The notes under the pieces: model-generated
What the model saw: only the letters and a program-made list of their open reading frames with translations
The model's database searches: none
Told to the model about the DNA's origin: nothing
DNA from: Spirochaetia bacterium
GTDB taxonomy: Bacteria; Spirochaetota; Spirochaetia; PWKH01
Direction: 5' to 3'
NCBI GenBank assembly: GCA_021736505.1
Contig: JAIPFU010000032.1
Coordinates: 1 to 12,937, forward strand
Length of the DNA stretch: 12,937 nucleotides
Translations under genes and position numbers: made by a program
Part shown: positions 3,452 through 12,937 of the stretch, one piece after another
Position numbering within the stretch: the first letter of the stretch is position 1
How the letters are laid out: every line of letters starts with the position of its first letter

Positions 3452-3480
3452 CTGAAATAACCTGAGTTTAACGTTATACT
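3452..3480 (+). promoter_or_regulatory. Putative promoter of the LacI-family repressor gene
   Basis: CTGAAA at 3452-3457 (4 of 6 to the -35 consensus) is 17 bp from TATACT at 3475-3480 (5 of 6 to the -10 consensus). A start near 3487 would leave a leader of under 20 nt. A perfect TTGACA lies further up at 3435-3440 but has no good -10 partner at the right distance. The -10 box lies inside the operator, so bound repressor would block initiation. Confidence 0.55.
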
Positions 3481-3492
3481 AAAACGTTAAAC
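3466..3492. promoter_or_regulatory. LacI-family operator O1 (autoregulation)
   Basis: The arms GTTTAACGTT (3466-3475) and AACGTTAAAC (3483-3492) are exact inverted repeats around a 7-nt spacer. Each arm carries an AACGTT core with the central CG typical of LacI-family operators. The left core is itself a near-perfect 14-bp palindrome, GTTTAAC/GTTATAC, with one mismatched pair. The site covers the -10 box and predicted start and ends just before the ribosome site of the repressor gene. A near copy lies at 4539-4565. Confidence 0.8.
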
Positions 3493-3504
3493 TAGAGGAT
3501 GCAA

Positions 3505-4521
3505 ATGAAGGTAACAATTAAAGATATTGCACGGTTGTGTGATGTGTCAGTAACTACCGTTTCTAGAGTGATAAACAATAAAACAGACAGTATTGGAAAA
3601 GAAACAGTAGAACGGATAGAAAAGAAAATAATAGAACTAGGATATACACCAAATTCTGTTGCACGAAGTATGATTACCGGACGTTCTCATACTATTGGGC
3701 TGGTTGTTCCTGATATTAGAAATCCTTTTTTCTCTGAATTGGCCAGGGGCGTAGAAGATTATATGAATGCCAAGCAGTACGGAGTTTTTCTATGTAATAC
3801 GGACAGCTCAATGGATAAAGAAAAGCAGTACATTGATCTACTAAAAGGGAAATTTTCTGATGGAATGCTTTTTACTACGCAGAATAATTACGAGTTATCT
3901 CAATACTTTGATGAACTTATACACAATAATTATCCAATTGTTCTTATCGAGCGTTATGTAGATGGAATAGATGGTTTTCCAGGAATCTATCTTGATAATC
4001 GGGGTGGAGCAAAGAAAATATGCGATTTGATCATAAGCAAAGGTCATAAACGTATAGCATGCATTACCGGACCATTGAAAACGACCAATGCAAGAATGCG
4101 ACTGAACGGATATAAAGACGCATTAAAAGAAGCAGGAGTAAAAATTGATGATTCACTGATTATTGAAGGTAATTATCGCTATAGTGGTGGATACAACTGT
4201 ATGAAAAAACTGATTGATAACAAAGATAATGATTTTACTGCAGTTTTTGCTTGTAATGATATGATGGCTTATGGAGCATATAAAGCATTGGAAGAAGAAC
4301 ACATTGAAGTACCCGATGAAATATCCCTGGCAGGTTTTGATAACATCAAATTCCCCGATGTATTCAAGCCTAAATTAACTACAGTTGAACTGCCGGCATA
4401 TAAAATGGGTAAACGGGCGGCAGAGATGCTTATGAAGATTATGAAGAAAGAAAAGCTTGAAGAAGTAACATATGAATATTCACTGGATGTGGTTGATAAA
4501 GGCAGCGTTGCTGATATTTAA
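3505..4521 (+). CDS. LacI/GalR-family transcriptional repressor of the sugar operon
   Basis: This 338-residue, full-length regulator is probably cytoplasmic and dimeric and senses a sugar or sugar phosphate. The helix-turn-helix is at residues 4-24 (TIKDIARLCDVSVTTVSRVI), the hinge helix near 48-57 (PNSVARSM), and the periplasmic-binding-protein-like effector domain runs from about 62 to the end, with the RLNGY segment at 199-203 and FDN at 278-280. At position 56 the usual hinge leucine that inserts at the operator's central CG is methionine. I prefer the ATG at 3505 over the one at 3499: the AGAGG ribosome site at 3494-3498 abuts 3499 but is 6 nt from 3505, and the product then begins MKVTIKDIA as in relatives. 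Matching operators before this gene and before the permease indicate autorepression and operon control. The effector is not identifiable, so no rbsR symbol is given. Confidence 0.92.
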   Translation: MKVTIKDIARLCDVSVTTVSRVINNKTDSIGKETVERIEKKIIELGYTPNSVARSMITGRSHTIGLVVPDIRNPFFSELARGVEDYMNAKQYGVFLCNTDSSMDKEKQYIDLLKGKFSDGMLFTTQNNYELSQYFDELIHNNYPIVLIERYVDGIDGFPGIYLDNRGGAKKICDLIISKGHKRIACITGPLKTTNARMRLNGYKDALKEAGVKIDDSLIIEGNYRYSGGYNCMKKLIDNKDNDFTAVFACNDMMAYGAYKALEEEHIEVPDEISLAGFDNIKFPDVFKPKLTTVELPAYKMGKRAAEMLMKIMKKEKLEEVTYEYSLDVVDKGSVADI

Positions 4522-4538
4522 AAAATTTTCTCATCTAA

Positions 4539-4565
4539 GTGTAACGTTGTACTAAAACGATATAC
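4539..4565. promoter_or_regulatory. LacI-family operator O2 (operon control)
   Basis: This site matches O1 (3466-3492) at 23 of 27 positions by direct comparison, including TAACGTT, TACTAAAACG and the trailing ACTA. It starts 17 nt after the repressor stop codon and ends 25 nt before the permease ATG, so it separates the two genes. It is less symmetric than O1 (the right core is ACGATA instead of ACGTTA), which may mean weaker binding or a different set-point. Confidence 0.8.
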
Positions 4566-4571
4566 TATATT
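4548..4571 (+). promoter_or_regulatory. Putative operon promoter, -10 region
   Basis: Three -10 candidates overlap the O2 operator: TGTACT (4548-4553, aligned with the TATACT of the repressor promoter), TATACT (4561-4566) and TATATT (4566-4571). None has a clear -35 box 16-18 bp upstream; the preceding DNA is an A/T tract at the end of the repressor gene. A promoter is likely because the operator is repeated here, but its exact position is unresolved. Confidence 0.4.
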
Positions 4572-4590
4572 AGGTAGGTTTGGAGATTGT

Positions 4591-5568
4591 ATGTTAGAAT
4601 TAATAAAAGAAAAAGTTTCTGCTAGAACAAGCATGAGAGAAGTAGGGGTTCTACTTGCACTAATTATACTGATTGTCTTCTTTTCATTTACTTCCCCATT
4701 TTTCCTGAGGGTTAACAACCTCATCAATATAGTACGCCAGATATCACTTCTTGGAATTATTGCTATGGGTATGACAATGATCATTGTAAGCGGTGAAATT
4801 GATCTTTCAGTTGGTGCTGTATATGGTGCAACAGCAATAACAGCTGGAATGATTCTTATTAATGGTGGACTAGTTTGGGTTGCCATTGTTGCTTCTCTTT
4901 TAGTTGGTTCTTTTTTCGGTATTTTGAATGGAGTTTTGGCAACATACGGAAAAATACCTGCATTGATCGTTACTTTAGGAATGATGAACATAGCACGTGG
5001 GGCAGCCTTAGTTCTCAGTGGAGCAAGAGTTATATCTTTATCACCTAGAACGGTTGATGCCGCCGGATTGGATTTCTTTCTCTTCCTAGGGCAGGGGAAA
5101 ATTTTCAGCATACCCGTAATTAGTATTATTTTTATTATTATTGTAATAATATCTAATTTTTTATACAAAAAGACCATTTTAGGATTTAGAATGCGCGCCG
5201 TTGGAGGGAATAGTTCTGCCGCAAAAGCTTCAGGGCTTAACCGTAATTTAATTAAGATATTTGCTTTTGCTATTACAGGATTTTTTTGCGCCGTAGCTGG
5301 AATCTTAAACCTTTCATTTCTAGCAAATGTCCAAGGGACAACCGGTAACGGTTTAGAGCTTGATGTAATTGCTGCAGTAATTATTGGTGGCACATCGCTT
5401 ACAGGAGGTGAGGGGACAATAATTGGCACCTTAATCGGGGTACTTATAATGGGAGTCCTTAAAAACGGCATAGTTCTTCTCGGAGTATCTCCATTTTTTC
5501 AGATGCTCATCATTGGTATGGTAATTATTGGTGCAGTTGCAATAGATATGTGGTCAAGAAAGTCCTGA
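4591..5568 (+). CDS. rbsC-like: Ribose-type sugar ABC importer, permease subunit
   Basis: This inner-membrane channel subunit has 325 residues, the normal size for the RbsC/AraH/XylH permease family. Hydrophobic segments fall at about 18-36, 50-66, 75-90, 93-112, 120-142, 172-190, 220-245, 257-268, 275-290 and 300-320. Family marks are SGEIDLSVG (67-75), the cytoplasmic coupling segment around MRAVGGNSSAAKASG (201-215), and the GGTSLTGGEGT loop (266-276). GGAG at 4582-4585 lies 5 nt before the ATG. It is the first gene after operator O2 and precedes the ATPase, whereas classic rbs operons place the ATPase first. The transported sugar cannot be read from the permease. A long open frame on the opposite strand (4518-5471) is a shadow of its hydrophobic codons. 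Confidence 0.93.
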   Translation: MLELIKEKVSARTSMREVGVLLALIILIVFFSFTSPFFLRVNNLINIVRQISLLGIIAMGMTMIIVSGEIDLSVGAVYGATAITAGMILINGGLVWVAIVASLLVGSFFGILNGVLATYGKIPALIVTLGMMNIARGAALVLSGARVISLSPRTVDAAGLDFFLFLGQGKIFSIPVISIIFIIIVIISNFLYKKTILGFRMRAVGGNSSAAKASGLNRNLIKIFAFAITGFFCAVAGILNLSFLANVQGTTGNGLELDVIAAVIIGGTSLTGGEGTIIGTLIGVLIMGVLKNGIVLLGVSPFFQMLIIGMVIIGAVAIDMWSRKS

Positions 5569-5589
5569 TTGGATTTAGTAGGGGGAAAT

Positions 5590-7107
5590 ATGAGTGTTAT
5601 TGTAAAGTTTGAAAATATTACAAAAAATTTTCCTGGAGTCAGAGCACTTTCACATGTAAGTCTTGATGTAAAGTATGGGGAAGTACATGCAGTCGTTGGT
5701 GAAAATGGTGCAGGTAAATCGACGCTAATGAATATTCTCGGGGGTTTGTTTGATCCCACTGAAGGGAAAATCTATTTTGAAGGAAAAGAAGTAGATATAC
5801 CCAATGAGCAGGCTTCTCTGCAACTAGGTATCGGTGTTGTTTATCAGGAAATGAAACTCTGTCCAAATTTGTCAATAGTAGAAAACATCTTTTTGGGAAG
5901 GGAGATTAGGGGTAAAAGAAGAAAAATCGACTGGAAAAGTATGAAAGAAACATGTATACAGGTTCTGGATTCTCTAGGTTTGAAACTATCTCCTGATACA
6001 TTAGTTAAGAGTCTCTCAATAGCCGAACAACAGATAGTGGAAATTGCAAAATCATTGGCCCGGGATATAAAAGTACTTGTCCTTGATGAGCCAACATCAG
6101 CTTTAACCATGACAGAATCCCAGAAACTTTTCAGTAACATTCATGCACTGAAAAAGAAAGGTGTGTCCATTATTTATATATCCCACAGGCTTGAAGAGAT
6201 TATTGAGTTAAGCGATAGAATATCAGTACTGAGGGATGGTGAATTTAAAGGTACATTCAATGTTGAAGATGTTAATGTGAATAAGCTGGTTAAGTTGATA
6301 GCTGGAGAGAAACTGCTGAAAGAACTAAGTCAGAAGGCTCCTCAGAAAAGAAAAAATTTTTCAAGCAAGGTCCCTTATGTTGTGGTTGAGAATCTCAGCA
6401 GCAGTGATGGATCAGTGCAAAATGTGAGTTTTAATCTAAAAAGGGGAGAAATACTTGGGTTTTATGGAGTCCAGGGAGCTGGTCGGACTGAAATGCTACA
6501 AACAATTTTTGGGCTTAGGAATAAAAAAAGCGGAAGCATCAAAGTTGATAATATAGAAATCGAAAATAGAAATCCAATGAAGGCTATTGAAAATGGATTT
6601 GCCATGGTACCTGAAAACCGTAGGGAAGCAGGGCTATTTCCCAATATGAATATTTTAGAGAACATTAATATTTCCAATGCAAAAGATATTATAAAAATTG
6701 GCGGTCTATTAAAAAAGCAGAAAATGAAAACTATTTCTGAGAAATATAAAGGTAAAATTGGAATTAAAACCCGCGATATCTATCAGAGCATTATGCAACT
6801 CAGCGGCGGGAATCAACAGAAAGTGATAATAGCAAGGTGGTTGGCATCGAAACCACAAGTCTTTCTTGTGGATGAACTGACACGGGGTGTTGATGTTGGG
6901 GCTAAGTCTGAAATTTTCTCAGTCCTGCGGATGCTACAGGAACAAGGATTAGGAATTATACTGGTTTCATCGGAATTACAGGAAGTTATAGCTGAGGCAG
7001 ATCGTGTGTTAGTGATGAAAGACGGACGTATCGTCAAAGAACTTACAGGTAATCAAATAAATAAAGATGAGATTGTGGAACATGCTTTACTTGGAAAGGG
7101 AATTTAA
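5590..7107 (+). CDS. rbsA-like: Ribose-type sugar ABC importer, double-domain ATPase
   Basis: This cytoplasmic ATPase has two fused nucleotide-binding domains and powers import with the neighbouring permease and binding protein. It has 505 residues, as usual for RbsA/MglA/XylG. Domain 1 has Walker A GENGAGKST (37-45), a signature-like LSIAEQQ (142-148), Walker B VLVLDEP (162-168) and the switch His in SHR (199). Domain 2 has the degenerate Walker A GVQGAGRT (293-300), with Arg in place of Lys as is normal for this domain, LSGGNQQK (404-411) and Walker B VFLVDEL (424-430), where relatives usually have DEP. I chose the ATG at 5590, preceded by AGGGGG (5580-5585). The in-frame TTG at 5569 directly follows the permease stop and lacks a ribosome site. 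The gap to the permease is 21 nt, so the two are cotranscribed. Confidence 0.94.
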   Translation: MSVIVKFENITKNFPGVRALSHVSLDVKYGEVHAVVGENGAGKSTLMNILGGLFDPTEGKIYFEGKEVDIPNEQASLQLGIGVVYQEMKLCPNLSIVENIFLGREIRGKRRKIDWKSMKETCIQVLDSLGLKLSPDTLVKSLSIAEQQIVEIAKSLARDIKVLVLDEPTSALTMTESQKLFSNIHALKKKGVSIIYISHRLEEIIELSDRISVLRDGEFKGTFNVEDVNVNKLVKLIAGEKLLKELSQKAPQKRKNFSSKVPYVVVENLSSSDGSVQNVSFNLKRGEILGFYGVQGAGRTEMLQTIFGLRNKKSGSIKVDNIEIENRNPMKAIENGFAMVPENRREAGLFPNMNILENINISNAKDIIKIGGLLKKQKMKTISEKYKGKIGIKTRDIYQSIMQLSGGNQQKVIIARWLASKPQVFLVDELTRGVDVGAKSEIFSVLRMLQEQGLGIILVSSELQEVIAEADRVLVMKDGRIVKELTGNQINKDEIVEHALLGKGI

Positions 7108-7124
7108 TTTTAGAACAAGAAAAA

Positions 7125-7172
7125 AACCGAGGTAAATACATGTTAATTCATGTAAATATATTTTGCCCGGTT
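7125..7172 (+). promoter_or_regulatory. Intercistronic stem-loop before the binding-protein gene
   Basis: AACCG (7125-7129) can pair with CGGTT (7168-7172), and inside that TACATG (7137-7142) pairs with CATGTA (7149-7154) around a 6-nt loop. No T run follows, so this is not a standard terminator. Its position just before the binding-protein gene suggests an RNA processing or stabilising structure that would let this subunit be made in excess. An overlapping TATAAT at 7172-7177 could alternatively mark an internal promoter, but its -35 box is poor. Confidence 0.4.
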
Positions 7173-7194
7173 ATAATATTTAGGAGGAATTTTT

Positions 7195-8175
7195 ATGAAA
7201 AAGTTGGTAAATTTGATGCTCGTGCTGTTGGTGGGGACGCTTTCAGTATTAAGCGCACAAGGGTCCCAGGAAAGCGCTAACTTAACTCCTGAGACCGAAG
7301 ATGCTATTGAAATAACAGTAGTTTATCATGACACAGGAATTGAATTCGGTCAAGTTATCAGAACTGGTGCTATGGCTGCAGCCGAGGAATTCGGTATAAA
7401 GGTAAACTGGGTTGGCCCTATTGGTATTGATGTTAACGAACAAGTGAACTTTATTGAAAATGCAATTACATCAGAAGTTGACGGTTTGGCAGTGTCAAAT
7501 GTTAATGCAGAAGCCTTGAACCCAGTCATAGATAAAGCTATTGATGCTGGAATCCCTACCGTAACTTTCAACAGTGAAGCAGCTGGTTCTAAAAGATTAG
7601 CTTTTTACGGTCAGGACCTTGTTGAATCAGGGTATATCCAGGGGCAGATTCTTGTAGAATATATGGGTGAAGAAGGTAAGGTGATTATTACTAGTGGTGA
7701 TGCTTCTGCATCCTGGTCTCAGGACAGGGAATCTGGGGTAAGAAAAGCCCTTGACAAATATCCTGGTATTGAAATAGTCCAGGTGCTGAGCACCGGATGG
7801 GAGGACCAGCAAATGTATGCAGCGATTGAAAATGCTCTACTTGCAAATCCTGATTTGACAGGTATGGCTTCCCTTGGGGCTCCCACAAGCATGGCTACAG
7901 GTAGAGCTTTGCTGAGAAATGATAAATATGACAAAATTATGCATGTTTGCCATGATTTGATGCCGGAAACATTGGATAATGTTAAAGCAGGGGCAACCAA
8001 GGCAACATTAAGTCAAAATCCATTTATGCAGGGATATCTTCCTGTTAAAAATCTCTATCTCCACCTTTCTGAAGGTAAAGAACTTCAGAGCGAAGATACA
8101 GGAATTCTCCGAGTTGATTCAACGAATGTTGATGAATATTTGCAGAAATTAGAGAATGGAGAACCAATTGGTTAA
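7195..8175 (+). CDS. rbsB-like: Periplasmic sugar-binding protein of the ABC importer
   Basis: This type I periplasmic binding protein (Peripla_BP_4/RbsB class), 326 residues, captures the substrate and delivers it to the permease. It has a Sec signal peptide (MKKLVNLMLVLLVGTLSVLSA) with likely cleavage near Ala21. No lipobox cysteine is present. The two-lobe fold is evident from repeats such as VDGLAVSNVNAEALNPVID (95-113). Aligned by eye with E. coli RbsB, Arg141 and Gln235 have counterparts (Arg178, Gln274), but the DR pair carrying Arg90 is replaced by NS (126-127) and the AQND region by SLGAPT (226-231). The pocket therefore differs from classic ribose binders. The ribosome site is strong (AGGAGG 7182-7187, 7 nt spacing). 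A 9-bp stem-loop follows the gene. Confidence 0.9.
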   Translation: MKKLVNLMLVLLVGTLSVLSAQGSQESANLTPETEDAIEITVVYHDTGIEFGQVIRTGAMAAAEEFGIKVNWVGPIGIDVNEQVNFIENAITSEVDGLAVSNVNAEALNPVIDKAIDAGIPTVTFNSEAAGSKRLAFYGQDLVESGYIQGQILVEYMGEEGKVIITSGDASASWSQDRESGVRKALDKYPGIEIVQVLSTGWEDQQMYAAIENALLANPDLTGMASLGAPTSMATGRALLRNDKYDKIMHVCHDLMPETLDNVKAGATKATLSQNPFMQGYLPVKNLYLHLSEGKELQSEDTGILRVDSTNVDEYLQKLENGEPIG

Positions 8176-8261
8176 TATCACAATTTGGTAACTTGGCTAA
8201 TGGGACAAAACTCATACTATTTTTGAACCACCATTAGTTGCAACTCATGCTAATAAACATT

Positions 8262-8290
8262 GGTGCCTGATAGCATCCCTGTCAGGCATC
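8262..8290 (+). terminator. Stem-loop after the binding-protein gene, partial terminator or RNA stabiliser
   Basis: GGTGCCTGA (8262-8270) pairs with TCAGGCATC (8282-8290) over 9 bp including one G-U, with an 11-nt loop. The following tract is AT-rich but not a clean T run. It sits in a 156-nt gap between binding protein and kinase, the longest gap in the operon. It probably protects upstream message or lowers downstream expression. Nothing else recognisable lies in that gap. Confidence 0.55.
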
Positions 8291-8331
8291 TATATAAATT
8301 TATTTTCAAGTAAAAAATTAGGTAAAGAATA

Positions 8332-9294
8332 ATGACTCAAAAAGCAAAAATACATGTTATTGGCAGTTACGCTGTAGGTATGACCATGCGTACTGCATGT
8401 TTTCCAAAAGAAGGTGAAACCATTCCTGGTTATAATTTCACCCAGCTCCATGGTGGTAAAGGATCTAATCAGGCAGTCGGTGCAGCACGGATGAATGCAG
8501 ACGTAATGTTTACTTCCTGTATAGGGGAAGATATGCTGGGAGATGCTGCATTATCAATGCTTGGGAGTGAAGGAATTCGAACAGAGTCTGTGTTTCGTTC
8601 TTCGCAATCAAGTACTGGTGTTGGTTTTGTGATGGTTGGAGATAATGGAGAGAATGAAATCCTGATAGATCTTGGTGCAAATGAAGATCTTTCCAGAGAG
8701 CACATAGATCAATCTTTTAATTTAGGATTTGATGCTGATATTTTATTGGTTCAATTGGAAGCAAACTTGGATGCAGTATACTATGCAATGAAACTTGCCC
8801 AGAAAAAAGGTATTCCCTCTGTGCTTAATCCGGCACCATTTAGGGAGATTCCTGAAGAATTTATAAGACTTGCGACATATATCGTCCCAAATCAGACAGA
8901 ATCAGAAAGTCTTCTCAAACATAATGGAGTTTCTTATGATCTGTGTCTAGAATTGCACAACAAATATGGAGTGGATGTAATTCTTACTGCTGGTAAGGAC
9001 GGTGCATTTTATACTGATACAGATACTGACTCTATGGAAACTGTAATAAAAAATTTGAAGGTTGATAAAGTTCCTGTGATTGATACGACCGGTGCCGGAG
9101 ATTGTTTTAATGCTGCTTTGGCGGTTGCACTTGCAGAAAATAAGTCTATTTCTGAGGCAGTTCTTTTGGCCAATACTTCAGCATCTTTGTCGGTTCAGGT
9201 CGAAGGTGTTCTAGAATCATTACCTGATAGAGAAAAAGTTGAAAGCAAACTAATGAAAAGTGAAAATGCAGCATGTATAAATTTACTAAAATAA
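8332..9294 (+). CDS. PfkB-family sugar kinase, ribokinase-like with altered sugar pocket
   Basis: This cytoplasmic kinase of 320 residues (E. coli ribokinase has 309) would phosphorylate the imported sugar at the 5-OH with ATP. PfkB marks are complete: GGKGSNQAVGAAR (41-53), VLNPAPF (164-170), and the anion-hole and catalytic segment DTTGAGDCFN (251-260), with Asp257 as the base. Against E. coli ribokinase, the ribose contacts Gly42, Lys43, Asn46 and Glu143 are kept at the same numbers, but Asn14 and Asp16 are Ala14 and Gly16 (GSYAVGM in place of GSINADH). Loss of two hydroxyl-binding side chains argues against plain ribose as preferred substrate and fits a deoxypentose. The ribosome site AGGTAAAG is weak, and the preceding stem-loop may tune expression. 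Followed by the pyranase after 26 nt. Confidence 0.9.
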   Translation: MTQKAKIHVIGSYAVGMTMRTACFPKEGETIPGYNFTQLHGGKGSNQAVGAARMNADVMFTSCIGEDMLGDAALSMLGSEGIRTESVFRSSQSSTGVGFVMVGDNGENEILIDLGANEDLSREHIDQSFNLGFDADILLVQLEANLDAVYYAMKLAQKKGIPSVLNPAPFREIPEEFIRLATYIVPNQTESESLLKHNGVSYDLCLELHNKYGVDVILTAGKDGAFYTDTDTDSMETVIKNLKVDKVPVIDTTGAGDCFNAALAVALAENKSISEAVLLANTSASLSVQVEGVLESLPDREKVESKLMKSENAACINLLK

Positions 9295-9320
9295 AACAAG
9301 AATAAAAAGGTACTTGATAT

Positions 9321-9791
9321 ATGAAAAAAAGCAGAATTTTAAACAAACATCTTAACAATGCGATCGCTTCAATGGGGCATGGCGATTATATTATTATCTC
9401 GGATGCGGGATTCCCTATACCTGAAGAGAAAAGGGTGGACCTGGCGATTGAAGCCGATGTACCAGGTATTGCTGATATACTTGAACTGGTGACCAGCGAT
9501 TTTATTTATGAACGGGTTATTGTTGCAAATGAACAGAAAGACCATAATCCTGAACATTTTAAAAGAGTTGATGAAATTTGTGATAGGTGCGATGTAGAAA
9601 CCATTCCCCATGAACAGTTAGTTGGAGAATATCCGCAAAAAGCAAAATTCATTATACGGACCGGGGGTTTTGAACCCTGGGGGAACGTTATTTTATGTTC
9701 CGGAGTAGATGCTCCTGTCTGGTTTCAAAAACCAGGAACTAGTGTACCCGATTATTACCAGGAACGGGTGGATTACAAAGAAGAGAAGTAA
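9321..9791 (+). CDS. rbsD-like: RbsD-family sugar pyranase (mutarotase)
   Basis: RbsD proteins interconvert pyranose and furanose forms so that the kinase gets its furanose substrate. Here 156 residues carry the family pattern: SRILNKHLNNAIASMGHGD with the catalytic His20, DAGFPIP with Asp28 (28-34), VANEQKDHNP (68-77), His97, and IIRTGGFEPWGNVILCSGV (111-129). Two things differ from E. coli and B. subtilis RbsD as I remember them: the tyrosine of the SPYAN motif is Trp120, which lines the sugar site, and about 27 residues extend past the usual end (from Asp130), including VWFQKPG and a charged tail. It lies between kinase and aldolase, and its stop is 3 nt from the aldolase start, so translational coupling is likely. 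FucU-type fucose mutarotase is the main alternative within the same superfamily. Confidence 0.88.
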   Translation: MKKSRILNKHLNNAIASMGHGDYIIISDAGFPIPEEKRVDLAIEADVPGIADILELVTSDFIYERVIVANEQKDHNPEHFKRVDEICDRCDVETIPHEQLVGEYPQKAKFIIRTGGFEPWGNVILCSGVDAPVWFQKPGTSVPDYYQERVDYKEEK

Positions 9792-9794
9792 TAA

Positions 9795-10475
9795 ATGAAA
9801 AATTTAGCAAAATATATTCAATTTACTGATGTTAATCCTGAGATGACCAGAACACAGTTGATAACGCATTGTGAAATTGTTGCTGAGTATGGTTTTAATG
9901 CAGCTATGATAGCTCCCTGCTGGGCGGAATTAGCCCAGGAGGTTATGAAGGGGGCTTCTAAAAGTCATGTGGCTTCATGTTTTTCATTTCCCAATGGTAA
10001 TGATACAACCGCAATGAAGACAGCTGCAGCTAAAGAGTTGATCAGTATCGGCGTTAGAGATTTTGATTTTACAGCACAAACTTCATATCTTTTGTCTGGT
10101 ATGTATGATGAATATTTCATTGAACTCAAGGCTATTGCAGATATTGCTAAAGTTGAGGGAGCACAGACCAAGGTAATTATTGAGTTTGGACTATTAAATG
10201 AAGAACAACGGAGGATTGGGGCAGAACTCGCGGTAGAGGCTGGAATAAATTATCTCAAGCAGTCAAGCGGATTTGTAAAGGGAATTCCTGCTGTTCCTGA
10301 AGATATTGCATTTTTAAAGGCTATTACTAAGGATAAGGTAAAAGTTAAAGGATCAGGGAATATTAATACTCGAGAAAAGGCTGTTTCCTTGCTAGAAGCA
10401 GGTGCTTCATTATTGGGAACTAGCTCTGCTGTTGCGATTGTTAAGGGGGAAACAGGAAATTCTTCAGCGTATTAA
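9795..10475 (+). CDS. DeoC/LacD-family class I aldolase, divergent
   Basis: Deoxyribose-phosphate aldolases cleave 2-deoxyribose 5-phosphate to acetaldehyde and glyceraldehyde 3-phosphate. This 226-residue protein has the size and fold pattern of the family. The Schiff-base lysine is Lys155 (LKQSSGF), the proton-relay lysine Lys185 (VKGSGNI), the aspartate Asp91 (FDF), and the phosphate-binding end is GTSSAVAIV (208-216). It diverges in the N-terminal strand, where the usual DHT-LKP is QFTDVNP (9-15), and at FPNGNDTT (65-72) and EFGLLN (130-135), where DeoC has FPLGANTT and ETCLLT. Chemistry should be retained while substrate choice may differ. It is the last gene of the operon, 3 nt after the pyranase, with its ribosome site (GAAGAGAAG) inside that gene. 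I withhold the deoC symbol because of the divergent substrate motif. Confidence 0.85.
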   Translation: MKNLAKYIQFTDVNPEMTRTQLITHCEIVAEYGFNAAMIAPCWAELAQEVMKGASKSHVASCFSFPNGNDTTAMKTAAAKELISIGVRDFDFTAQTSYLLSGMYDEYFIELKAIADIAKVEGAQTKVIIEFGLLNEEQRRIGAELAVEAGINYLKQSSGFVKGIPAVPEDIAFLKAITKDKVKVKGSGNINTREKAVSLLEAGASLLGTSSAVAIVKGETGNSSAY

Positions 10476-10479
10476 ACCT

Positions 10480-10548
10480 CATAAGTAATAGTTCTTATGC
10501 TCGTTCTTCAAATTAGAAGATATTTTTTTGAAATCCGAAGATTTTTTT
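10480..10548 (+). terminator. Tandem terminator-like hairpins at the operon end
   Basis: Three small hairpins follow the aldolase stop: CATAAG (10480-10485) with CTTATG (10494-10499); TCTTC (10505-10509) with GAAGA (10516-10520), followed by seven T at 10523-10529; and AAATC (10531-10535) with GATTT (10540-10544) around a CGAA loop, followed by TTTT. Each stem is short and AU-rich, but two of them run into T tracts on the plus strand, which fits intrinsic termination of the sugar operon. The remaining DNA to 10720 is AT-rich with no convincing promoter boxes, although one for the next gene is expected there. Confidence 0.6.
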
Positions 10549-10720
10549 GGGCTGACCATTAAGGTATTTAACCATAGGTGTGTTATTGTATATTTGTCAA
10601 TTTTAGAGACATTCCTTTATCACAATTTCATATAACTTATCTTTTTTTACGGCTTATGAACATTATGGAAAGTATCTTTTGTAACTGAAATTCTCTTGAG
10701 TGATAATATCGGGAGGTATT

Positions 10721-11752
10721 ATGTCATCACGCAATCATATAAAAAAATTAATCAATAAAGAAAAAGTTGATCACTGCGGGTTCTGGCTGGGCAAACCGCA
10801 CACCGAAACAACAGATATGCTTAATAAAGTATTGAAAACCGCAACACTCGAAGAAATTCAGCAAGTTTTTCAAGATGATATCCGCTGGATAACTCCACAA
10901 TATGTGAAATCAACATACGCACATCCCGATGGTTTTTCGATGCGTCCATGGAAGGATAAAAACCCCCACGGTCTCTCAGGGAAGGGATTACTTTCATACA
11001 ACTCTACAATTAAGGATTTAGATGCCATCAATTTTCCTAAAGTTGAACATATTGATTTTACGGAAATATTGGAAATGCTTAATAAACCGGAAGATGTTTA
11101 TAGATTGAGCGGTTTCTGGTCTCCTTTTTATCACGATCTTTCGTATCTGTTCGGAACAGAAGAACTTCTGGTTTTTCTTATGACTGATCCGGAAATCATC
11201 AAAGAAGCAACTGACCGTATATGCAGTTTTTATTATGATGCCAACGATCTTTTTTTTAAAAAAGCTTCTGATAAGATAGATGCTCTCTTCATTGGGAATG
11301 ATTTTGGAACCCAAAATGGATTAATAATATCACCGAATCTTTTTCGCCAGTTTTTCCTTCCTTGGATAAAAAGATTTGCAGAACAGGCACACAATTTTGG
11401 CCTTCAATTTGTTTTTCACAGCTGCGGCGGTATTGCAGATATCATTGATGATCTCATAAATGCAGGTGTAGACTGTTTGCATCCGATGCAGACAACAGCA
11501 AGAGGAATGGATCCTGAGACATTGTCTTCAAAATACTCAAGTCGTATTACCTTCATGGGAGGTATAGACACACAAGATTTGCTTTTAAATGGTACAAAAG
11601 ATGACGTGGATCGCGAAATTAAGAGATTATTTAATGCATTTGGAAATAGTTTTATACTCGGACCAAGTCATGAAGCTTTATTACCCTCAATCAATGTAGA
11701 AAATGTCATACATCTAGCTCAGCATAACAGAACTGCGGATGAAAGAGTATAG
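10721..11752 (+). CDS. URO-D/MtaA-superfamily protein, not a haem enzyme
   Basis: This 343-residue protein has the uroporphyrinogen decarboxylase (PF01208) barrel pattern: GNDFGTQNGLIISPNLFRQF (192-211), the metal-binding FHSCGG with His233 and Cys235, MGGIDTQDLL (279-288), and GPSHEALLP (314-322), whose His317 may replace the third Cys ligand of MtaA/CmuA methyltransferases. The N terminus (CGFWLGKP) lacks the MRQAGR arginines of true HemE, so porphyrin decarboxylation is unlikely. The reaction is unknown; relatives transfer methyl groups to or from corrinoid carriers, but no corrinoid protein is nearby. I chose the ATG at 10721 because GGGAGG (10711-10716) precedes it; the GTG at 10700 has no ribosome site. 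It is separated from the sugar operon by 245 nt and terminators, so a shared role is only suggested by position. Confidence 0.85.
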   Translation: MSSRNHIKKLINKEKVDHCGFWLGKPHTETTDMLNKVLKTATLEEIQQVFQDDIRWITPQYVKSTYAHPDGFSMRPWKDKNPHGLSGKGLLSYNSTIKDLDAINFPKVEHIDFTEILEMLNKPEDVYRLSGFWSPFYHDLSYLFGTEELLVFLMTDPEIIKEATDRICSFYYDANDLFFKKASDKIDALFIGNDFGTQNGLIISPNLFRQFFLPWIKRFAEQAHNFGLQFVFHSCGGIADIIDDLINAGVDCLHPMQTTARGMDPETLSSKYSSRITFMGGIDTQDLLLNGTKDDVDREIKRLFNAFGNSFILGPSHEALLPSINVENVIHLAQHNRTADERV

Positions 11753-11863: not shown

Positions 11864-12937
11864 TTATCCTTTTATGACAGCAAGGGGGAGAAGCTTTACA
11901 AGCGGGCGTACAAGATCACGCTGCTGATCCATAACCTCATCAATATTCTTGTATGCCCCCATTGCTTCGTCTAAATCTTTTTTTGAATGAAGATTATGGA
12001 ATATACCCAGACGGTCGAGTCGGGACTGCTCGTCTGCTAAATTGAGTTTTCGCTGAGCTTCTTTTCTTCCCATGAGGCGGCCTGCCCCGTGACTGCAGGA
12101 ATGAAAACTCTCAGGGTTACCCAAGCCTTCAACGATGTAGCTGGGGCTGCCCTGGCTGCCGGGAATGATTCCGCGCTGACCAAGCTCCGCTGAGGTGGCG
12201 CCTTTTCGATGAACCACCACCCGCTGACCGTAGTGAGTTTCAATACGTGCAAAGTTGTGATGGATATGGATTCTGTCGGTACTACTGAAGGGGCCGAAAT
12301 GATCGTGCATTACGGAGATTACCGTATCCATCATGCGTGTTCTGGATTCTGATGCAAACTGCTGAGCAAATTCCATTGCTTCAAAATAGCTTTTTCCCTT
12401 GGCTGCTTGTACTCTAGGATCGGTAGTAGCTGCTGGGCTTGGATGAGCAGTATCGATGGAGAGGGGCGCTAACTGCATATCTGGAAACTGCAGGTGATTC
12501 TTTTTTGCCTCGTTCTTGGCGATATCAGAGAATTCGCGGGCGATTGTGTAGCCGAAATTCCTGCTGCCGGAATGGAGCATTAACCAAATATACCCGTCAT
12601 CACCACGCTGAACTTCGATAAAATGGTTCCCTCCGCCTAAGGTTCCCAGCTGATAACGGGCAGATTCGAGTTCCCTCTGCACGGTTGGAACTTCAGGTGC
12701 AGCATCAAATCCTTTCCAGTGCTGTTTCTTTTTATGATGAGAAAAGCCCGCAGGTATCTCTTTTCGAATCCTTCTGACAGCCTTCTGCAGCTCCTTCAAG
12801 GAGCAGTCCTGCAGATCTGTTTGAACCGCGATCATCCCGCAGCCGATATCAACTCCAACGGCATTGGGGATGACTGTATCCACTGTTGCGAGAACCCCGC
12901 CGATGGGCATTCCAAAGCCTTTGTGAGCGTCAGGCAT
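11864..12937 (-). CDS. rtcB: RtcB RNA ligase, N terminus beyond right edge
   Basis: RtcB joins RNA 2',3'-cyclic phosphate or 3'-phosphate ends to 5'-OH ends using GTP and manganese. The 357 visible residues begin at PDAHKGFGMPIGG, which is internal in the family; roughly the first 50-60 residues are missing, so the methionine at the edge is not a true start. Active-site parts, numbered from the edge: GVDIGCG with Asp30 and Cys33, GGGNHFIE with Asn104 and His105, HSGSRNFG with His122, HHNFARIE with His227, and SHGAGR with His283, the guanylylated residue. All the expected catalytic residues are present. No RtcA or RtcR is visible in the window. It converges on the URO-D gene with about 110 nt between them, and its G+C is clearly higher than in the sugar operon. 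Confidence 0.95.
   Translation of the reverse strand: MPDAHKGFGMPIGGVLATVDTVIPNAVGVDIGCGMIAVQTDLQDCSLKELQKAVRRIRKEIPAGFSHHKKKQHWKGFDAAPEVPTVQRELESARYQLGTLGGGNHFIEVQRGDDGYIWLMLHSGSRNFGYTIAREFSDIAKNEAKKNHLQFPDMQLAPLSIDTAHPSPAATTDPRVQAAKGKSYFEAMEFAQQFASESRTRMMDTVISVMHDHFGPFSSTDRIHIHHNFARIETHYGQRVVVHRKGATSAELGQRGIIPGSQGSPSYIVEGLGNPESFHSCSHGAGRLMGRKEAQRKLNLADEQSRLDRLGIFHNLHSKKDLDEAMGAYKNIDEVMDQQRDLVRPLVKLLPLAVIKG

Follow-up and report, generated by a model that had tools for sequence, protein, structure and literature searches.

The 12,937-nucleotide stretch analysed here, contig JAIPFU010000032.1 of a Spirochaetia bacterium (assembly GCA_021736505.1; hereafter the window), carries an operon in which a ribose-type ABC importer, an RbsD-like pyranase and a PfkB kinase are joined to a DeoC-like aldolase. 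Judged from its sequence, this operon would import and degrade an O2-methylated pentose, most likely 2-O-methyl-D-ribose from 2'-O-methylated RNA, and we give this reading a probability of about 0.58. An earlier note had already grouped importer, pyranase, kinase and aldolase into one operon, assigned to 2-deoxyribose or another modified pentose; the open reading frames (ORFs), their + strand orientation and their families were confirmed, and the operon was found to span 3499-11752, wider than the 7195..10475 of the note. Gaps of 156, 26 and 3 bases separate the binding-protein gene from the kinase gene, the kinase gene from the rbsD-like gene, and the latter from the aldolase gene. The core of the note's proposal, that the unit as a whole has moved from ribose to a sugar whose aldose phosphate an aldolase splits directly, was supported, and this pattern proved to be conserved far beyond the window. 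The interpretation was right in kind and probably wrong in the sugar it favoured: a modified pentose fits the data below, and 2-deoxyribose is the weaker option in view of the aldolase pocket clade, published enzyme data and the demethylation-type genes.

The cassette aldolases form a separate clade

The window aldolase was recognised by the deoC model TIGR00126 with 147.9 bits against a cut-off of 117.3, Pfam reported no DeoC model for it, and DERA chains led its fold list; the AlphaFold models were ligand-free and were used for fold only. It shares with DeoC the fold, the Schiff-base Lys167, Lys201 and Asp102, and differs from it in having Gln for Asp16, Val for Leu20, Gln for Thr168, Ser for Thr170 and Met at position 47, with Phe76 retained. 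In the phylogenetic tree, the Gln16 aldolases fell into one separate clade holding 33/33 rows including the window (SH-like approximate likelihood ratio support, SH-aLRT, 98; L011 was dropped from the 33-row table for having the same scores as L010). The catalytic D102, K167 and K201 were kept in every row of this clade, and every row also carried the changes D16 to Q, L20 to V or I, T168 to N or Q and T170 to S, whereas the ordinary DeoC controls had D16 and L20 in 61/61, T168 in 59/61 and T170 in 60/61. Of these 61 controls, 45 were drawn from the 63 rows with ordinary DeoC and 15 came from Actinomycetes; E. coli DeoC completed the set.

Published work reports that E. coli DERA variants with L20A or F76A take a panel of donors including methoxy aldehyde, and that a 2-OMe pentose 5-phosphate analogue was made at a scale of >150 mg (PMC11821518). 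That synthesis is the reverse of the proposed cleavage and thus supports the 2-O-methylribose reading. The equilibrium of such aldol reactions favours synthesis, with K ~540 for a model reaction (PMC11821518), so removal of the products must pull the proposed cleavage.

The alternative named in the note is catabolism of 2-deoxy-D-ribose: the sugar would be imported, converted from pyranose to furanose and phosphorylated on position 5, and an ordinary DeoC reaction would then yield glyceraldehyde 3-phosphate and acetaldehyde. The TIGR00126 score, the DERA-led fold list and the retained catalytic Lys, Lys and Asp all favour it, yet the clade departs from DeoC at positions that are invariant or nearly so there, a departure that the usual DeoC substrate would not obviously call for. 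Together with the evidence on hydrolases and methyl-handling genes given below, this makes 2-deoxyribose an unlikely substrate in our view.

The cassette kinases lack Asp16, a 2-OH contact in a related kinase

Against the ribokinase model TIGR02152 the window kinase scored 280.0 bits, below the cut-off of 299.65; the pLDDT (predicted local distance difference test) of its AlphaFold2 model was 92.5. The reported contacts of ribokinase are Asn14, Asp16, Gly42, Lys43, Asn46, Glu143 and Asp255 (PMC9604405), and in the PfkB kinase PsuK, Asn14 and Asp16 bind the 2'-OH while Asp16, Gly41 and Asn45 hold the 3'-OH (PMC9247573). Alignment with E. coli K-12 RbsK (E. coli numbering) bore out the replacement of Asn14 by Ala and of Asp16 by Gly that the earlier note had seen; K43, N46, E143 and D255 were retained.

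These changes were followed in 26 of the 28 loci with a kinase match, after exclusion of L022, where the kinase spans two frames, and of L152, where its ORF is mis-framed. Asp16 was absent from all 26, position 16 being Gly in 23 and Ala in 3, and Lys43, Glu143 and Asp255 were present in all 26 and Asn46 in 23. Among the non-cassette kinases of the same genomes, by comparison, 18/20 had Asp16, one had Glu and one, a fragment, had Ser; a loss in 26/26 against retention in 18/20 argues that the substitution is more than chance. Position 14 was more variable (Asn 11, Ala 8, Gly 5, Leu 2), and in an Arabidopsis ribokinase the homologous Asn-to-Ala change barely reduced ribose activity (PMC9604405), so loss of Asn14 by itself says little. 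The loss of Asp16 would suit a 2-O-methyl and a 2-deoxy sugar alike, so the kinase by itself cannot decide between the two.

The nearest named relatives of the window kinase, compared as proteins only, are spirochaetal (Sphaerochaeta-labelled, 71%; Sediminispirochaeta, 63%). Three plasmid regions with a kinase match list no aldolase beside the kinase; related kinases thus also occur without the aldolase. The split reading frame in L022 (8501-9437) is either a pseudogene or a sequencing error. In three variant cassettes (L167, L169 and L170) the kinase has Asp46 for Asn46 and Ala16, the RbsD is more distant, and oxidoreductase and isomerase-like genes are present, the isomerase-like family having been checked for L169; these cassettes may serve a different sugar.

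Pyranase and binding protein

The RbsD-like protein scored 122.7 bits with NF008761 (cut-off 93). It retains the active-site His, Asp, His and Asn and has Trp for the Tyr at E. coli Y128; we take the position 120 under which the earlier note had correctly described this change to be B. subtilis RbsD numbering, and the roles assigned to these five residues are likewise our assumption. The Trp recurred in 18/20 cassette RbsDs, and all 20 had the C-terminal extension.

The binding protein reached 53.5 bits with the RbsB model NF007936, far from the cut-off of 337. Its Arg90-to-Ser change, also named in the note, was found again in alignment with E. coli RbsB, along with D89 to N and changes at contact positions 13, 16, 64, 164 and 190; on what we take to be the list of 11 ribose contacts of RbsB, 7 differ in the window. 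The corresponding table covers 15 of the 19 loci with such a protein (L022, L166, L167 and L169 were not entered).

The cassette recurs in distant lineages with exchangeable modules

Through a one-genome-per-species scan, plasmid searches and further genome searches, 32 further loci (L numbers) with an aldolase of the same clade were collected, 33 with the window. They come from Bacilli, Actinomycetes, Hyphomicrobiales and haloarchaea, the carriers including Oceanobacillus, Brevibacillus, Paenibacillus, Oceaniradius, Roseitalea, Kaistia and Devosia. The one-genome-per-species scan kept 80 loci, none above 44% identity, and 63 of these had the Asp16 of ordinary DeoC. Of the plasmid records, 84 had an aldolase match and three regions were compared. 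High-scoring aldolase matches were few in the whole-genome samples (6/297, 1/251, 6/297 and 3/246, centre genome included); the first of these samples gave six at E <=1e-81 among 41 matches, and in the Lactobacillaceae sample of 251 genomes the sole match was the centre genome itself. Chloroflexota gave six matches, five of them with middling scores. A search with the binding protein in 337 genomes of the class of genome G824 matched only G824.

Within 9 kb of the aldolase, a PfkB kinase was found in 28 of the 33 loci, RbsD in 20, a CUT2 binding protein in 19, a GntR-like regulator in 19, a nucleoside hydrolase in 7, a PhyH protein in 5, a mannose-type phosphotransferase system (PTS) in 3, a URO-D protein in 3, and a corrinoid protein with RACo activator and DUF1638 in 2; several loci are short contigs, and the counts are not independent events, since redundant sets were kept (L009/L010/L012, L150/L153, L168/L171, L172/L173 and L082/L083) and L167 shares a genome with L168. 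None of these modules was found by the same BLAST test in 62 control loci with ordinary DeoC, among which an ABC ATPase occurred in three and an aldehyde dehydrogenase in three; the controls are taxonomically lopsided, being mostly from Nitrospira, and L014, an ordinary DeoC locus, was dropped from them.

The route of supply varies among the loci. All seven loci with a nucleoside hydrolase (L007, L009, L010, L012, L149, L151 and L152) have a permease of the NCS1 or MFS type, and none of them has RbsD or the CUT2 importer; conversely, all 20 RbsD loci are without the hydrolase, so that 0/33 have both. The hydrolase may release the furanose directly, in which case no pyranase would be needed. 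In the three lactic-type loci (L001, L004 and L081), the PTS lies beside the aldolase with no kinase or RbsD match, and no isomerase was seen among the annotated genes of L081, the one locus of the three in which isomerases were looked for. It follows that the aldolase probably acts directly on a sugar phosphate, kinase and aldolase being the usual core.

Several other genes accompany the cassettes. L001 also carries a gene read as a class II aldolase. A DUF455 protein recurs in L005, L006, L008, L172 and L173, adjoined in four of the five by an isomerase-like gene (the neighbour in L006 gave no Pfam match). In L015 and L016 a PanB-like (ketopantoate hydroxymethyltransferase) gene separates rbsD from the aldolase gene, and in L086 one adjoins a related kinase. 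The haloarchaeal cassettes L082 and L083 have a short ATPase gene of ~270 residues and lie beside GH88 and SDR genes.

Comparison with published nucleoside hydrolase clusters

In a metagenomic clone, the gene of the nucleoside hydrolase RK9NH lies 15 bases from that of a DeoC-like protein, RK9DPA (PMC6278475). Conversion by RK9NH was reported as 100% for 2'-O-methyluridine and for uridine and 0% for 2'-deoxyuridine and thymidine; guanosine was fully cleaved, 5-fluoro-2'-deoxyuridine to 4% and 2'-deoxyguanosine to 3%, and RK9DPA failed to restore growth of an E. coli deoC mutant on thymidine (PMC6278475). The lack of activity on 2'-deoxyuridine and thymidine and the failed complementation speak against 2-deoxyribose. 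The same paper notes that clusters of Intrasporangium chromatireducens and Microbacterium resistens contain genes for a ribokinase and an aldolase, and that the M. resistens hydrolase has 97% homology to a 2'-O-methylribonucleoside hydrolase of Agromyces (PMC6278475).

The order kinase-aldolase-hydrolase was found in L149, L151 and L152 (in L152 with the mis-framed kinase ORF). The M. resistens aldolase P0245, likely that of the cited cluster, shares 81% identity with the aldolase of L149 and carries Gln16, Ile20, Asn168 and Ser170; an Intrasporangium sp. protein, P0315, has Gln16, Asn168 and Ser170. The window is like these clusters in pairing a Gln16-clade aldolase with a Gly16-type ribokinase homologue, and unlike them in having an ABC importer and RbsD instead of hydrolase and permease; no nucleoside hydrolase was matched in the window by Pfam or BLAST.

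The activity of RK9NH on uridine and guanosine also speaks for an unmethylated pentose (ribose, arabinose or another), which would be phosphorylated on O5 and cleaved to glyceraldehyde 3-phosphate and glycolaldehyde as a bypass of the pentose phosphate pathway. Further in its favour, the aldehyde dehydrogenase of L007 scored best against lactaldehyde dehydrogenase (426.3 bits, below the cut-off of 650), and glycolaldehyde is used by some DERAs at lower activity (PMC11821518), a finding that also makes the earlier note's statement that ribose 5-phosphate is not a DeoC substrate too strict. The absence of Asp16, a 2-OH binder in PsuK, from 26/26 kinases would be unexpected if the sugar carried a free 2-OH, and the PhyH and corrinoid modules would have no explanation; we consider this substrate quite unlikely.

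Candidate methyl-handling genes beside the cassettes

Two kinds of gene that could act on a methyl group were found. The importer, RbsD and kinase of L168 and L171 show 47-65% identity to those of the window, and the cassette of these two loci also holds two URO-D proteins, a corrinoid protein, a RACo-type activator and DUF1638. In L015, L016, L022 and L166 the permease gene is immediately preceded, on its own strand, by a gene for a PhyH-family dioxygenase; in L017 this gene lies further off, and the Pfam identity was checked for L166; PhyH-like bacterial and human enzymes are reported to demethylate 2'-O-methylnucleosides (PMC12709175). A 2-deoxyribose pathway leaves such demethylation-type genes unexplained.

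The window has a URO-D-like protein, which is above the cut-off of the URO-D Pfam model, scores 58.7 with TIGR01463 (cut-off 235.4) and is 27% identical to the URO-D protein whose gene adjoins rbsD in L168. It belongs to the same fold family as the corrinoid methyltransferases MtaA and CmuA and differs from these systems in falling under the MtaA/CmuA cut-off, with no corrinoid protein or RACo match in the window. Its presence fits a candidate methyltransferase for the methyl group, a putative counterpart of the L168 set.

Layout of the operon and candidate regulatory sites

The features of the operon are listed in Table 1. The start codons of the ATPase gene (5590) and of the URO-D-like gene (10721) were inferred, family searches having run from 5587 and 10718, respectively.

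Table 1. Genes and candidate sites of the operon in the window
Feature	Position	Strand	Basis
Two adjoining palindrome-like sites, operator candidates	3466..3492	.	just upstream of regulator gene; pattern GTTTAACGTTAAAC
LacI-family regulator (RbsR-like)	3499..4521	+	PF00356 and Peripla_BP domains; RbsR model NF047341, 261.5 bits, below cut-off 382
Third operator-like site	4539..4552	.	between regulator and permease genes; 3 mismatches to palindrome, weak alone
CUT2-type ABC permease (RbsC-like)	4591..5568	+	PF02653; 60-64% identity to L168/L171 permease
CUT2-type ABC ATPase (RbsA-like), two nucleotide-binding domains	~5590..7107	+	PF00005, two stretches
Periplasmic sugar-binding protein	7195..8175	+	PF13407 (Peripla_BP_4); D89 to N, R90 to S against RbsB
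PfkB sugar kinase, GSYAVGMTM subfamily; predicted 5-kinase of a 2-substituted pentose	8332..9294	+	PF00294
RbsD-type pyranase, Trp for Tyr, C-terminal extension	9321..9791	+	RbsD_FucU; NF008761
DeoC-fold class I aldolase, Gln16 clade	9795..10475	+	TIGR00126 deoC
URO-D/MtaA-CmuA-like protein, candidate methyltransferase	~10721..11752	+	PF01208, 69.6 bits

With up to 3 mismatches, the pattern GTTTAACGTTAAAC matched four times in the window, a number reached in 0/200 shuffles; as the pattern was derived from the 3466..3492 site after its stem had been seen, the shuffle test favours this site and is only suggestive. The fourth match lies inside the binding-protein gene (7394-7407). The palindromes before the regulator gene suggest putative LacI-type operators. 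No + strand terminator-like site was found between the aldolase and URO-D-like genes; a promoter-like site lies there at 10679-10707, such sites being at chance level in the window. An Rfam search of the window gave no match. Outside the operon, an ORF on the - strand (11864-12937), convergent with the operon and running to the window end, presumably encodes a relative of the RNA ligase RtcB, and an open-ended 672-residue ORF on the - strand (2-2017) has a lipoprotein-like start.

Discussion

The route that these data suggest would begin with the ABC importer bringing in the free sugar, mostly as the pyranose, from which the RbsD-type enzyme would supply the furanose. The PfkB kinase, without the residues that hold a 2-OH, would phosphorylate O5, and the aldolase, through a lysine Schiff base, would cleave 2-O-methylribose 5-phosphate to D-glyceraldehyde 3-phosphate and 2-methoxyacetaldehyde. 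The methyl group would be removed last, here by the URO-D/MtaA-like candidate and elsewhere by the corrinoid set or a PhyH dioxygenase. The cassettes share the aldolase but differ in their demethylation genes, which argues that the aldolase probably acts before demethylation; demethylation first would yield ribose and make a special aldolase pointless. Gene content, conservation, residues and the aldolase clade are observed, and the sugar, each of these reactions and the role of the URO-D-like gene are predicted from them.

Several observations weigh against 2-O-methylribose. TIGR00126 still labels the window aldolase DeoC, the change of L20 to V or I is small beside L20A, and Phe76 is retained. 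Asn14 persists in 11/26 cassette kinases and its loss hardly mattered in the plant ribokinase (PMC9604405), and five Bacilli cassette binding proteins retain 8/11 RbsB contacts. The window URO-D gene starts ~245 bases past deoC and its product is only 27% identical to that of L168, whose corrinoid protein and RACo had no BLAST match within the window; among solved structures, the cassette PhyH is closer to leucine hydroxylase than to PHYHD1. The queries of the neighbour test came mostly from cassette loci, which favours finding the modules there. As for the hydrolase cluster, Gln16 of RK9DPA is predicted from the sequences of its relatives, its failure to complement deoC is a single negative result, and full cleavage of uridine and guanosine by RK9NH leaves room for plain ribose (PMC6278475).

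The aldol cleavage removes the C3 stereocentre, so that by this reasoning the product cannot distinguish among pentoses. Another 2-substituted or branched pentose could therefore be degraded by the same chemistry, for example 2-O-methylxylose, which occurs in plant pectin; the GH88 gene adjoining the haloarchaeal cassettes would agree with this, and the Asp46 kinases of L167, L169 and L170 with their oxidoreductase/isomerase-like pair hint at substrate variants. The versions with a nucleoside hydrolase point instead to a nucleoside sugar, and we rank such a pentose as the least likely of the alternatives. Apiose and 3- or 5-deoxy sugars were dropped as candidates, since they would lack either the C3-OH that retro-aldol cleavage requires or an O5 that could be phosphorylated.

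All parts of the operon are known folds. It resembles the E. coli ribose operon rbsDACBK in its CUT2 importer, RbsD, PfkB kinase and LacI-type regulator; unlike the window, rbs has no aldolase, and the window kinase, under the ribokinase cut-off, is without Asn14 and Asp16 and the binding protein without D89 and R90. The enterobacterial deoxyribose locus deoK-deoP-deoX-deoM has the same kinase and mutarotase logic but another type of importer and of mutarotase, and a Pfam scan of the eight operon proteins found none of DeoP or DeoM type. Among the matches listed in searches of open-licence literature, judged mainly by titles and abstract starts, neither a route of 2-O-methylribose breakdown nor this cassette combination as a pathway was found described, which does not establish absence from print.

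Taken more widely, the loci may represent a complete, widespread pathway for RNA-derived O-methylated ribose, with a dedicated importer, pyranase and kinase and a DeoC-type aldolase shaped by natural evolution. Its supply end would be exchangeable (free-sugar importer, nucleoside permease with hydrolase, or PTS), and so would its demethylation end (PhyH dioxygenase or methyl transfer through a corrinoid); we put this forward tentatively, at a little short of even odds. The cassette names every enzyme of the proposed 2-O-methylribose route. If the proposal is true, it would provide natural aldolases and kinases for the synthesis of 2'-modified nucleosides, where engineered DERA has been used (PMC11821518), and would correct the database labels 'ribokinase' and 'deoxyribose-phosphate aldolase' for these subfamilies.

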